This document shows, piece after piece, positions 11,033 through 31,371 of a stretch of 49,012 nt of DNA. Position 1 is the stretch's first letter. Each line of letters opens with the position of its first letter. The position numbers and the translations under genes are program-made. Source of the stretch: an uncultured Clostridia bacterium (GTDB lineage Bacteria > Bacillota_I > Bacilli_A > RF39 > UBA660); NCBI GenBank assembly GCA_948433435.1, contig CAOJDX010000009.1, positions 1 through 49,012 of the forward strand, written 5' to 3'. The notes under the pieces are model-generated. The model was not told the origin of the DNA and searched no databases. It saw nothing but the letters and a program-made list of their open reading frames with translations.

Positions 11033-11061
11033 TTGACAAATTAGAAGTAAATGATTATTAT
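11033..11061 (+). promoter_or_regulatory. Promoter of the small-RNA locus
   Basis: Perfect TTGACA at 11033-11038, 17-base spacer, TATTAT at 11056-11061. The start should be near 11068, right before the first hairpin. No plus-strand gene follows. Confidence 0.75.
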
Positions 11062-11067
11062 AGTAAT

Positions 11068-11212
11068 CACCAATTCGGTTATTAGGCGAATTGGTCGCTA
11101 GTATCACACTAGCCAACCCCTTTTTATTCTTTTTTAAGAAGTTGCTCTTCAGGGGGAGCAGCTTCCATTATGAATTTAAAAGAAGACAGCTAATCAGTTG
11201 TCTTCTTTTTCT
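11068..11212 (+). ncRNA. Structured small RNA with predicted pseudoknot
   Basis: About 145 bases between a consensus promoter and a strong terminator. Stem 1: 11069-11077 with 11087-11095, 9 perfect pairs, 9-base loop. Stem 2: 11097-11102 with 11108-11113, 6 pairs. A single-stranded CCCCT (11117-11121) can pair with AGGGG (11151-11155) in the loop of stem 3 (11138-11147 with 11156-11165, 10 pairs with one G-U), making a pseudoknot. A terminator hairpin (11181-11190 with 11197-11206) and T-run follow. No open frame of note is inside. The size, 3' pseudoknot and Bacillota host make the raiA-motif RNA worth testing, but I cannot assign a family from memory. Confidence 0.65.
11178..11212. terminator. 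Terminator shared by the small RNA and nifJ
   Basis: Stem 11178-11190 with 11197-11209 (13 pairs, one G-U) and a T-run on the plus strand. The nifJ TGA (11194-11196) lies in the loop, so the right arm is nifJ coding sequence read the other way. The minus strand has a shorter T-run after the stem, so termination of nifJ here is plausible but weaker. Confidence 0.75.
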
Positions 11213-14200
11213 TTTTGATTTAATGATAATTTTTCATAATAAGTATATCTATTTATAGCATTTTCCTTATTTTCTTCTAAAACTTTTTTATAATCTTTAT
11301 TAATATTTTTTAAAGTTCTATATCTATCCTCTCCACCAACAAAATCCGAATATTTTGAAAAATCTGCTTTGGAGTCTAAAGAAAATTTTTCTGTTTCAGG
11401 ATGATAATGAAATAACGGAAAATAACCACAATTAGTTGCTTCTTTTTCCTCTTCAATACTATTTGACATCCCTTTGATAATTCCTTGAGCAATACAAGGA
11501 GCATAAGCAATGATTATAGATGGTCCATCATAGTGTTCTGCCTCTGTTAATACTTTAATTGTCTGCATGGGATTGGCACCCAAGGAAATTGTCGCAACAT
11601 AAACATGGGGATAAGTTAAAGCAATTTTAGCTAAATCTTTTTTAGCTGTTTCCTTTCCACTTGCGGCAAACTTAGCTATTGCTCCTCTTCTTGTTGATTT
11701 AGAGGATTGACCTCCTGTATTAGAATATACTTCTGTATCTAGAACTAAAATATTAACATTTTCTTTATTGGATAAAACATGATCTATTCCATTGTAACCA
11801 ATATCATATGCCCAACCGTCTCCGCCTACCATCCAAATAGATTTTGGTTTGATAAAACTTTTTAATTCTTTCAATCCTTCTATTTTGGTTTTCTCTACTA
11901 TGTCATATAAGTTATTTGCTGTTTCATCTGTAATTTCTTCTACATAGGCATTATAAATCTTTTGTTCACTTTTCTTTACTTCTTTGATATTATTTTTAAT
12001 CATGGTAACGATTTTATTTTTCATTGTGATATCGGCAATTTTCATTCCATAACCGAATTCAGCATTATCCTCAAACAATGAATTAGCCCAAGGAATAGAG
12101 TATGGCATAGAAGGAGAACTTGCTCCATAAATTGAAGAACAGCCTGTTGCATTAGCAATTACTAATTTCTCACCAAATAGTTGTGTTAGAAGTTTGATAT
12201 AAGCTGTCTCTCCACATCCTGCACAGGCTCCACTAAATTCAAATTTCGGCTTAATCATTTGACTGCCCTTAATGGTGTTTTTTGGTAAAACTTCTTTTTG
12301 TGTTACTTCATTGAATAAATATTCTGCTTCTTTTTCAATTTCCTCTTCTTGTTTCTTTTCTACCATAGTTAAAGCTTTTTCCTTCTTTTTACCAGGACAA
12401 ATATTACTACATAAACCACATCCTGTACAATCTTTCAAACTGATTCCTATTGTGTATTTTAAATTTTGATCCTTTATATTGGCATCTAGTAATTTTGTTT
12501 TTAAAGACTCAGGGGCATCTAAGACTTCATCTTCTGTTAAGAGAAAAGGTCTAATTACCGCATGAGGACAAACTAGGCTACACAAGCCACATTGAATACA
12601 ATTTTCACTATTATAATATGGACAAATATCCATAATGTTTCTTTTTTCTAATTTTGAGGTTCCCACGGGGGTGCTACCATCTACTTCATTTAAAAAGCTA
12701 CTAACAGGTAATATATTCCCTTCCATTTTACTAATCAATTCAAACATTGATTGTTTCTTAGGCATTTCAGGAATATAGTCTACGTTTGGTATTTTTACTT
12801 GAATAATATTTGTTAAAGCCTGATCAATTGCCTTTATATTTTTAGTTGATAAGTCTCCTCCCTTACCAGCAAATCTTGCAATAATATTTTCTTTTACTTT
12901 ACTAATAGCAAATTCAAAGTCAATAATTTTTCCTAACTTGAAAATTAAGGTTTCCATAATAGCACTTATTTTACCACCTAAGTCGTTATTTCTAGCAATT
13001 AAAGAAGCGTCTACAATATAGAATTTTATATTTTTCTTTTTCATAATATTTTTGTCATAATTACTAATATATTTCAAAATATCATCTTTATTTTTGGAAG
13101 TATTTAATAGAAAGATTCCATTATTGTCAATATGATCTAAAATATGCATTTTTTGTAAATAACTTTCTTTAGTACAGACAATTAAACTAGCTTTATCAAT
13201 ATAATAAGTCGATTTGATTGGAGTTTTTCCAAATCTTAAATGGGAAATTGTAATTCCTCCGCTTTTTTTAGAATCATACTGAAAGTAGCCTTGAACATAA
13301 GCTTTTGAATAGGTACCAGTTATCTTCATTAAGTCTTTACTGGCACTTACCATTCCATCTGAACCATAACCATAAACCATAAAACTGGTGTTTGCTGTTG
13401 GCAAAATGAATTTTTTGTCATAGGCAATACTTAATTTCGTAATATCGTCTTCAATTCCTAGGGTAAAGTTATGATGACATTCTTTACTATCTAGAAAATC
13501 AAATACTCCTTTTATCATGGCTGGAGTTGTATTTTTTCCTGATAATCCATATCTGCCACCAATAATTTTAATTTTCTCATTTACTTCTTTTACCGTTTTT
13601 ACGACATCTAAATATAGTGGTTCTCCTGTTGAACCAGCCTCTTTTGTTCGATCCAAAACGGCAATTTTTTTCACTGTTTTAGGAAGAGATTTTAGGAAAT
13701 ATTTACTAGCAAAGGGACGATATAAATGAACTTCAATTAACCCTACTTGTTCTCCTTTTTCTATTAAGTAATCAATTGTCTCTTTAATTGTTTCATTAAC
13801 TGAACCCATTGCTACTATGATTTTAGTCGCTGAAGAAGAACCGTAATAATTAAACGGTTGGTAGTTTCTACCTGTTATTTTATTTATCTCTTGCATATAT
13901 GAGTTTACAATATCTGGTAGCTTTTCATAGTATTTATTACGAGCTTCTGTTATTTGAAAATAAATATCCTCATTTTGACTAGTTCCTCTTATGACTGGTT
14001 TTTCTGGGTTAAGTGCCCTATTTCTAAAGTCTTGTAGAGCTTCTTTATCAACTAATTTTTTGATTTTATCCATATCAAGGACATCTATCTTTTGAAGTTC
14101 ATGGCTAGTTCTAAAACCGTCATTAAAATTAATAAAGGGCACTTTTCCTTTTATTGTTGAAAGATAGGCAACTGCTGTTAAATCCATTGATTCTTGAACT

Positions 14201-14625
14201 GAAGAAGAGGCTAAAATAGCAAAACCAGTTTGACGAGCAGCATAAATATCTTGATGGTCTCCAAATATTGATAAAGCATGAGTCGCTAAACTTCTAGCAG
14301 CTACATTAATCACACATGGTAACAGTTCTCCTGCAATTTTATACATATTAGGAATCATTAAAAGAAGCCCTTGGCTAGCTGTATAAGTGGAAGTTAAGCA
14401 ACCTGATAAAAGGGATCCATGGACTAACCCTGCAGCTCCCGCTTCTGATTCCATTTCTACTACTTTTACAGGAGTATCAAAATAATTTAATCTTTTTTGT
14501 TGAGCCCAAAGGTCAGTAAGTTCAGCCATAGGTGATGCTGGTGTTATTGGATAAATTCCCGCAACCTCAGTAAATTTATAGGCAACATGAGCACAAGCTT
14601 CATTTCCATCCATTATTTTTTTCAT
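11194..14625 (-). CDS. nifJ: Pyruvate:ferredoxin (flavodoxin) oxidoreductase
   Basis: Oxidises pyruvate with CoA to acetyl-CoA and CO2, passing electrons to ferredoxin; a marker of anaerobic fermentative metabolism. The single-chain 1143-residue enzyme has the usual domain order: N-terminal transketolase-like region (AYKFTEVAGIYPITPASPMAE), FINFNDGFRTSHE, domain III, two 4Fe-4S clusters (CIQCGLCSLVCP and CTGCGLCSNICP), CAGCGETAY and the thiamine-diphosphate site GDGWAYDIGYNGIDHV with EVYSNTGGQSSKST. All cluster cysteines are present. The ATG at 14625 has AAGGAGG upstream. It appears monocistronic. Its 3' end overlaps the terminator of the convergent small RNA. Confidence 0.97.
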   Translation of the reverse strand: MKKIMDGNEACAHVAYKFTEVAGIYPITPASPMAELTDLWAQQKRLNYFDTPVKVVEMESEAGAAGLVHGSLLSGCLTSTYTASQGLLLMIPNMYKIAGELLPCVINVAARSLATHALSIFGDHQDIYAARQTGFAILASSSVQESMDLTAVAYLSTIKGKVPFINFNDGFRTSHELQKIDVLDMDKIKKLVDKEALQDFRNRALNPEKPVIRGTSQNEDIYFQITEARNKYYEKLPDIVNSYMQEINKITGRNYQPFNYYGSSSATKIIVAMGSVNETIKETIDYLIEKGEQVGLIEVHLYRPFASKYFLKSLPKTVKKIAVLDRTKEAGSTGEPLYLDVVKTVKEVNEKIKIIGGRYGLSGKNTTPAMIKGVFDFLDSKECHHNFTLGIEDDITKLSIAYDKKFILPTANTSFMVYGYGSDGMVSASKDLMKITGTYSKAYVQGYFQYDSKKSGGITISHLRFGKTPIKSTYYIDKASLIVCTKESYLQKMHILDHIDNNGIFLLNTSKNKDDILKYISNYDKNIMKKKNIKFYIVDASLIARNNDLGGKISAIMETLIFKLGKIIDFEFAISKVKENIIARFAGKGGDLSTKNIKAIDQALTNIIQVKIPNVDYIPEMPKKQSMFELISKMEGNILPVSSFLNEVDGSTPVGTSKLEKRNIMDICPYYNSENCIQCGLCSLVCPHAVIRPFLLTEDEVLDAPESLKTKLLDANIKDQNLKYTIGISLKDCTGCGLCSNICPGKKKEKALTMVEKKQEEEIEKEAEYLFNEVTQKEVLPKNTIKGSQMIKPKFEFSGACAGCGETAYIKLLTQLFGEKLVIANATGCSSIYGASSPSMPYSIPWANSLFEDNAEFGYGMKIADITMKNKIVTMIKNNIKEVKKSEQKIYNAYVEEITDETANNLYDIVEKTKIEGLKELKSFIKPKSIWMVGGDGWAYDIGYNGIDHVLSNKENVNILVLDTEVYSNTGGQSSKSTRRGAIAKFAASGKETAKKDLAKIALTYPHVYVATISLGANPMQTIKVLTEAEHYDGPSIIIAYAPCIAQGIIKGMSNSIEEEKEATNCGYFPLFHYHPETEKFSLDSKADFSKYSDFVGGEDRYRTLKNINKDYKKVLEENKENAINRYTYYEKLSLNQKEKEDN

Positions 14626-30582: not shown

Positions 30583-31371
30583 TTATCTATACAATAACAC
30601 ATATAATTTAGTCATTAAAGATTGAAAAAGGGGTTTTTTTATTTTAAACTGTGGCTTTTCCTTTAACATTTCTGTTACTATTTTGTCCACTAACTTTTGA
30701 TAATTCTTTTTTTCTATCAAGGTAAATAATCTTTTTTGAAGTTTATTTATTTTTTTTATATTTTGATAGAATTCACTATTTTCTTCTAAATATTTTTCTT
30801 TATTATTAATCATTACATCATTGAACCCTGTTTGATAAGCACCAGGTTCAATTAGGGACATTGAGATATTGCTATTTATTTGTTTTAGTTCTTTCTTTAA
30901 TGTAAAACATAATATAGATAAGGCTGCTTTGGATGAAGTATAACAAGATAAGTAAGGTAATGGAAGCATTCCAGCTAAGGAAGAGGTTACAAATATTTTT
31001 CCCTTAATATGTTCCCGTTTAAATTTTAAATAAGATCTTCTAACTACTTCCATTGTTCCGAAAACATTAGTTTCATAATTATCTCTTAATACATCAATAT
31101 CCATAGCCAGTAAGGTGCCTCCATTTCCAATTCCAGCATGAGCCCATACAATATCATAAGATAGCTTATCTAAAAGATTCAGATCCTCTTTATTAGTGAT
31201 ATCTAATTTTAAGGGAATGATATTATTACTTCTTATTTCTATATTTTCTTTTAAAGATTTTAATTGTTTTGTTGTATGAGTACATAGATAAACTGTATGT
31301 CCTAAGTTAGAAAGTTTTTTTGCTGTTTGATAGGCAATACCTCCTCTCCCACCTGTTATTAGGATGCGCAT
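30583..31371 (-). CDS. Short-chain dehydrogenase/reductase
   Basis: NAD(P)-dependent oxidoreductase of the classical SDR family, 262 residues. TGGRGGIA (6-13) is the dinucleotide loop, DIT near 58 and the AHAG stretch near 78 replace the common DVxx and NNAG motifs, and the catalytic set is Ser131, Tyr144 and Lys148 (SCYTSSKAA). A C-terminal region of about 60 residues with basic and hydrophobic character (PQFKIKKPLFQSLMTKLYVL) could touch the membrane, as in acyl-lipid-acting SDRs. The ATG at 31371 has GTGGTG upstream. Substrate unknown. It follows the two-component genes but lies beyond their terminator. Confidence 0.9.
   Translation of the reverse strand: MRILITGGRGGIAYQTAKKLSNLGHTVYLCTHTTKQLKSLKENIEIRSNNIIPLKLDITNKEDLNLLDKLSYDIVWAHAGIGNGGTLLAMDIDVLRDNYETNVFGTMEVVRRSYLKFKREHIKGKIFVTSSLAGMLPLPYLSCYTSSKAALSILCFTLKKELKQINSNISMSLIEPGAYQTGFNDVMINNKEKYLEENSEFYQNIKKINKLQKRLFTLIEKKNYQKLVDKIVTEMLKEKPQFKIKKPLFQSLMTKLYVLLYR

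Follow-up and report, generated by a model that had tools for sequence, protein, structure and literature searches.

A conserved small RNA gene in a family of uncultured gut Bacilli and its probable base pairing with the rsmH message

It is clear that the window, that is, the whole stretch of 49,012 nucleotides analysed here, carries the gene of a structured small RNA (sRNA). This RNA is probably a trans-acting, Hfq-independent regulator that controls the rsmH message by base pairing and so, probably, the mraZ-rsmH division and cell-wall operon. The gene, its structure, its complementarity to rsmH and its co-evolution with rsmH are all read from the sequences themselves. The RNA is previously undescribed, being absent from Rfam 15 and not described in the papers searched; its novelty is worded in this way because the literature searched was open-access. 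The features of the locus, in window coordinates, are the following.

11033-11061, plus strand: sigma-A type promoter, with TTGACA at 11033-11038, a spacer of 17 nt and TATTAT at 11056-11061
11068-11212, plus strand: putative sRNA transcript, placed from the promoter and the terminator
11069-11095, plus strand: hairpin 1, ACCAATTCG...CGAATTGGT, covarying
11084-11091, plus strand: second putative rsmH-pairing segment, in the 3' arm of hairpin 1, AGGCGAAT against rsmH AUUCGCCU
11097-11113, plus strand: hairpin 2, GCTAGTATCACACTAGC, almost invariant
11114-11135, plus strand: linker, C/U-rich and invariant, CAACCCCTTTTTATTCTTTTTT, the main putative pairing segment
11117-11121, plus strand: 5' strand of the pseudoknot, CCCCT, facultative
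11138-11165, plus strand: hairpin 3, without a U-run here, an intrinsic terminator in most relatives
11151-11155, plus strand: 3' strand of the pseudoknot, AGGGG, in the loop of hairpin 3, facultative
11178-11209, plus strand: intrinsic terminator hairpin of 14 pairs, followed by a U-run
11194-14625, minus strand: convergent neighbour, the pyruvate:ferredoxin oxidoreductase gene

The promoter matches the consensus at 11 of 12 positions, which is the joint best value within the 3 kb scanned, and it is kept upstream of nearly all homologues as TTGACAAA...TTAGTATA. The transcript is taken to start approximately 7 nt past the -10 box and to end at the terminator. As is characteristic of trans-acting base-pairing sRNAs, the RNA has a separate gene with its own promoter and intrinsic terminator. 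A preliminary description of this DNA had placed the promoter, the hairpins and the terminator at these same coordinates and had proposed an independent small RNA, possibly of a new class. This proposal stands, given that the RNA is conserved, covaries and belongs to no Rfam family. The strong terminator reported there is also present, but it overlaps the stop of the convergent oxidoreductase gene and, for this reason, is probably shared by the two genes in the window; moreover, in most homologues it is hairpin 3 that acts as the terminator, given that a U-run follows it in 104 of 135 loci.

The segment of 145 nt folds with a minimum free energy of -51.8 kcal/mol (z = -7.0), a value that none of 200 shuffles equals, and hairpins 1, 2 and 3 and the terminator hairpin are all part of this fold. 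It is the most stable fold of its length in the window, since none of 978 windows of 145 nt taken from both strands of the 49 kb equals it; the best unrelated one is a tRNA region, at -37.5. Among homologues, both sides of hairpin 1 have changed in four pairs, with 99.4% of cells paired, while hairpin 2 shows a compensatory change in one pair. The covariation measures of these two hairpins are higher than in every slid control and in every, or nearly every, shuffle. For hairpin 3 the covariation is strong, with all Watson-Crick types found at most positions. The covariation on which the preliminary description had made its structure depend is, therefore, present in stem 1, strong in stem 3, limited to one pair in stem 2 and absent from the pseudoknot.

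The complementarity between CCCCU and AGGGG does exist and is predicted to contribute -9.7 kcal/mol as a helix; in the minimum free energy fold, two Gs of AGGGG are engaged in wobble pairs of a hairpin 3 with 12 pairs. Across homologues this helix shows no covariation and is not conserved, as an H-type pseudoknot should be. AGGGG is found in 106 of 145 parsed loci, approximately three quarters of the sRNA loci, and the CCCC of the linker never changes, even in homologues that lack AGGGG. This means that the pseudoknot, which had been put forward as a defining feature, is not an essential element but a facultative one, and that the linker also serves a separate function. Indeed, the linker core CAACCCCUUUUUAUUCUUUUU is nearly invariant among homologues. 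Some of the sequences had been collected because they contain the exact linker, which makes that part of the sample favor invariance, but the sample obtained by BLAST was not collected in this way and shows the linker equally unchanged.

According to BLAST, the RNA occurs in most genomes of the same family and not clearly outside it. The covariance model R1, built from hairpin 1, hairpin 2 and the linker, matches 49 of the 54 genomes of the family and only two of 341 genomes from elsewhere in the class (E of approximately 6e-4 to 7e-4), both of which proved on inspection to be chance matches. The complement of the linker and a hairpin 2 arm, allowing up to three mismatches, was found in 253 of 291 family genomes. 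The named relatives are uncultured Bacilli of the gut and rumen, deposited as Bacilli, Tenericutes, Mollicutes or Erysipelotrichaceae bacteria. The gene is usually present in single copy; at L132 (5054-5300) the complete gene is duplicated in tandem, and in the second copy hairpin 3 has AGAGGAG instead of AGGGGG. A recG gene, identified by eye, lies upstream and divergent in 86 of 135 sRNA loci, its place in the window being taken by a Sua5/YrdC gene, and the pyruvate:ferredoxin oxidoreductase gene lies downstream and convergent in 44 of 135, approximately one third. No Hfq was detected in 40 genomes, comprising family members and sampled genomes of the class, while five of 14 control genomes were positive. 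Given that the family has no detectable Hfq, this is probably not an Hfq-dependent sRNA.

Two other readings of the locus were rejected. There is no plus-strand gene downstream for a riboswitch or leader to control, the downstream gene being convergent. A small protein could be encoded by a frame of 55 codons at 11091, but the third positions of the conserved segment are invariant and the spacing between hairpins 1 and 2 varies from 0 to 3 nt, so that no reading frame is kept among homologues, which bears out the earlier statement that no coding frame is present.

Searches with the complement of the linker repeatedly gave one gene, rsmH (mraW), identified by Pfam Methyltransf_5 with an E of 1e-117 and located directly after mraZ in the division and cell-wall cluster. 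In the genome of the window, the position complementary to the linker corresponds to rsmH codons 36-46, and the linker together with AGGCGAAU from the 3' arm of hairpin 1 complements codons 36-49. The complementary stretch of rsmH is one continuous run in the right antiparallel order: the two segments, which flank hairpin 2 in the sRNA, adjoin each other in the mRNA. The joint fold of the sRNA and rsmH of the window's genome has an energy of -57.8, versus -43.5 for the two apart, with both segments paired and hairpins 2 and 3 intact in the predicted complex. For this pair the site is the best in the gene by a narrow margin (ddG of -14.9, the next being -14.7). At 30611-30640 of the window there is a further stretch, AAAAAGGGGTTTTTTT, with -17.8 kcal/mol; it is the second best site complementary to the linker outside the sRNA gene, looks intergenic and is probably due to chance.

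The homologous position of rsmH was taken from 63 family genomes, mostly one per genus. It is the best match of the gene to the linker in 46 of them and reaches -15.5 kcal/mol or lower in 36, the lowest value being -29 kcal/mol. When synonymous codons are shuffled such that the protein is preserved, the site is significant (p<0.05) in 32 of the 63 genes, where approximately three are expected. The mean z of the site is -5.1, versus -0.6 +/- 0.6 for 60 shuffled linkers, the best of which gives -2.3. After the linker site many genomes continue with TTC GCC TTT GAC/T. The hexamer TTCGCC, which shows complementarity to AGGCGAAU from the 3' arm of hairpin 1, stands at the site in 31 of the 63 genes and only four times elsewhere in 44 kb of the same genes. 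The exact bipartite pattern is found in 38 of 145 family genomes and never with the reversed control; in the genome of the window it has a single match, which falls within rsmH, and wherever a match could be checked against the coordinates of rsmH it lies in that gene, except for an extra one in genome G057.

The two partners were compared in 44 genomes for which both sequences were available. Of these, 23 have both GGCGAA in the sRNA and TTCGCC in rsmH, 15 have neither, six have the sRNA hexamer only and none has the rsmH hexamer only (Fisher p 2.4e-7). On a tree of RsmH proteins from which the pairing site had been removed, the two traits change 13 and 14 times; among the independent contrasts on well supported branches, approximately six of seven agree and none disagrees (sign test p of approximately 0.03). 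When sRNAs and targets are re-paired at random, the predicted duplexes become weaker (p 0.0004). Confounding by base composition was rejected, given that GC and GC3 are equal in genes with and without TTCGCC. Three genera (G012, G046 and G386), which have lost both hexamers, have a longer linker duplex that extends into GGCU, with ddG of -27 to -30. A conserved unpaired segment of the sRNA is, hence, complementary to an unlinked mRNA and co-evolves with it. The fact that the sRNA and the rsmH stretch have changed in step indicates that the RNA very probably works by pairing with the rsmH message, and the word "orphan" in the preliminary description does not hold with respect to function, since the rsmH mRNA is a co-evolving partner in trans.

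We infer that this pairing takes place in the cell and lowers expression, in the following manner. Hairpin 1 would open, and both segments would pair with rsmH over roughly 28-33 bp, with hairpin 2 remaining folded between the two duplexes. Such a long duplex within the gene would stop ribosomes and thereby lower expression. It would also make the message a substrate for RNase III or another nuclease that cuts double strands, and the downstream part of the operon would be lost. As an optional brake, the CCCC of the linker may be masked by the AGGGG in the hairpin 3 loop. Hfq would not be needed.

Approximately one third of the rsmH genes have little or no complementarity, yet the sRNA linker is unchanged in those genomes. 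Conservation of the linker cannot, therefore, be caused by rsmH alone; something else must be targeted by the linker or bind to it. This is what would be expected if the pairing stretch of rsmH, either in place or as a cleaved fragment, were a sponge that titrates the sRNA, with other mRNAs as the main targets. The same operon offers precedents: RybB is sponged by FtsO, which is an RNA from within ftsI (PMC7815308), and decay-derived RNAs lie within mraZ, ftsL, ftsI and murE of E. coli (PMC6156199). Nonetheless, in a sample of 30 loci that carry the seed complement no target other than rsmH recurred, and the hairpin 1 segment tracks rsmH specifically, so that a sponge is unlikely, although it retains some plausibility. 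The element predicted here resembles these RNAs in being an RNA pairing element within a dcw coding sequence. FtsO-RybB differs in that the RNA from the coding sequence is the sponge, the gene is ftsI, the process is Hfq-dependent and the sequences are others.

C-rich sRNAs are known from Bacillota in which Hfq has no global role, namely RoxS, FsrA and CsfG (PMC8216469). Like RoxS/RsaE, FsrA and CsfG of Bacillus and Staphylococcus, the RNA is short and autonomous, with hairpins, an unpaired CCCCUUU and a terminator (PMC8216469); these parallels, together with CCCCUUUUU being single-stranded and invariant and a few seed matches directly before start codons (e.g., L379), favor a mode of action in which CCCCUUUU pairs with many Shine-Dalgarno regions and blocks translation, rsmH being one target. 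This mode of action is rather improbable. The motif AAAAAGGGGTT(A/C/T) is not above its reversed control in 98 genomes, counted over ribosome-binding-site and other positions together, the invariance of more than 20 nt exceeds what a seed for ribosome sites needs, and the best supported target site lies approximately 106 nt into the coding region. General targeting of ribosome-binding sites is likewise disfavored, given that the complement of the 11-12-nt seed is not enriched overall and that rsmH alone recurred among the loci sampled. In addition, the RNA differs from these sRNAs in sequence and Rfam match, in having one long invariant linker, in its two-armed best target site inside a coding sequence, and in its occurrence in a family with no detectable Hfq. 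The covariance model RF01820, which we take to be that of the RoxS/RsaE family, does not match the sRNA.

The exact core of 40 nt, hairpin 2 plus linker, is also found in two phage contigs and a prophage. There it lies in the 3' part of a conserved non-coding region of 700-900 nt (L061 7380-8292; L054 1484-2180; L060, minus strand), flanked by an ArpU-like gene and the terminase genes. This region holds a tRNA-like element (a tRNA with a long insert), matches no Rfam family except tRNA and is a candidate large phage RNA. A phage attachment site is an unlikely explanation, given that the phage copy in G011 lies between phage genes inside the prophage and the host copy is intact. This recurrence of the module, and an invariance of hairpin 2 and linker beyond the needs of rsmH pairing, would agree with a binding site for a protein or larger complex, to which rsmH pairing would be secondary. 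It would leave the co-evolution with rsmH unexplained, and we regard it as distinctly improbable.

Complements of parts of the core, and an element resembling the phage RNA, were seen at other places. At L055 (approximately 2000-2040), L056, L059 and L120, the complement of the linker lies between ppdK and a helix-turn-helix gene, on the strand of the latter, and is followed by a terminator-like hairpin (in L120 as judged from sequence alone). It may be a sponge or an attenuator controlled by the sRNA. This leader was rejected as a general antisense target, since it is confined to four loci and is not conserved at other homologues of the gene, which show no pairing. At L259 (approximately 2001-2041, G392) an exact hairpin 2, GCTAGTATCACACTAGC, stands in antisense just upstream of the ribosome-binding site of a gene. 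At L177 (7951-7999, minus strand), the end of a contig that carries Cas9, Cas1 and Cas2 genes, CAACCCCTTTTTATTCTTTT precedes a hairpin and a long-range stem that resemble those of the phage RNA. It is conceivable, although doubtful, that the sRNA is the hub of a family-wide cell-division switch in these Hfq-less gut Bacilli, that phages (L054, L060, L061) took over hairpin 2 and linker to pair with host rsmH or to displace the sRNA, and that the complementary leader of some hosts (L055, L056, L059, L120) is a counter-sponge.

A raiA-motif RNA (ModT), as suggested in the preliminary description, would also be an autonomous structured RNA of Bacilli within the Bacillota, but with no Rfam family matched by the sRNA region at gathering threshold or with permissive filters, no covariance-model match to raiA up to E 5 and a best plus-strand match of 14.8 bits versus a cut-off of 38.9, the RNA is not raiA, and a member of this or another Rfam family diverged below the gathering score has practically no probability.

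With respect to its predicted target, a known parallel in kind is StsR of Rhodobacter sphaeroides, which uses base pairing to act on the dcw cluster (PMC8307010), as the present RNA is predicted to do. StsR-UpsM differs in that StsR is alphaproteobacterial, Hfq-bound and RNase E-dependent, and pairs with the 5' UTR and UpsM rather than with rsmH codons. EcpR1 of Sinorhizobium meliloti is an Hfq-independent cell-cycle sRNA that works by way of a conserved single-stranded region (PMC4414408), as is predicted for the RNA described here; its seed is GC-rich, its targets are dnaA and gcrA, and its sequence is unrelated.

The RNA would provide a large, uncultured, genome-reduced gut lineage, in which Hfq is not detectable, with a near-universal regulatory RNA, and it comes with a specific and testable partner, rsmH, beside mraZ in the division and cell-wall cluster. 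Co-evolution in trans between a segment of an sRNA and the codons of its putative target is rarely so clearly visible, which suggests that family-wide collections of metagenome genomes can by themselves yield sRNA targets. Since the core recurs without change in phages, it may be asked whether they too make use of this control.
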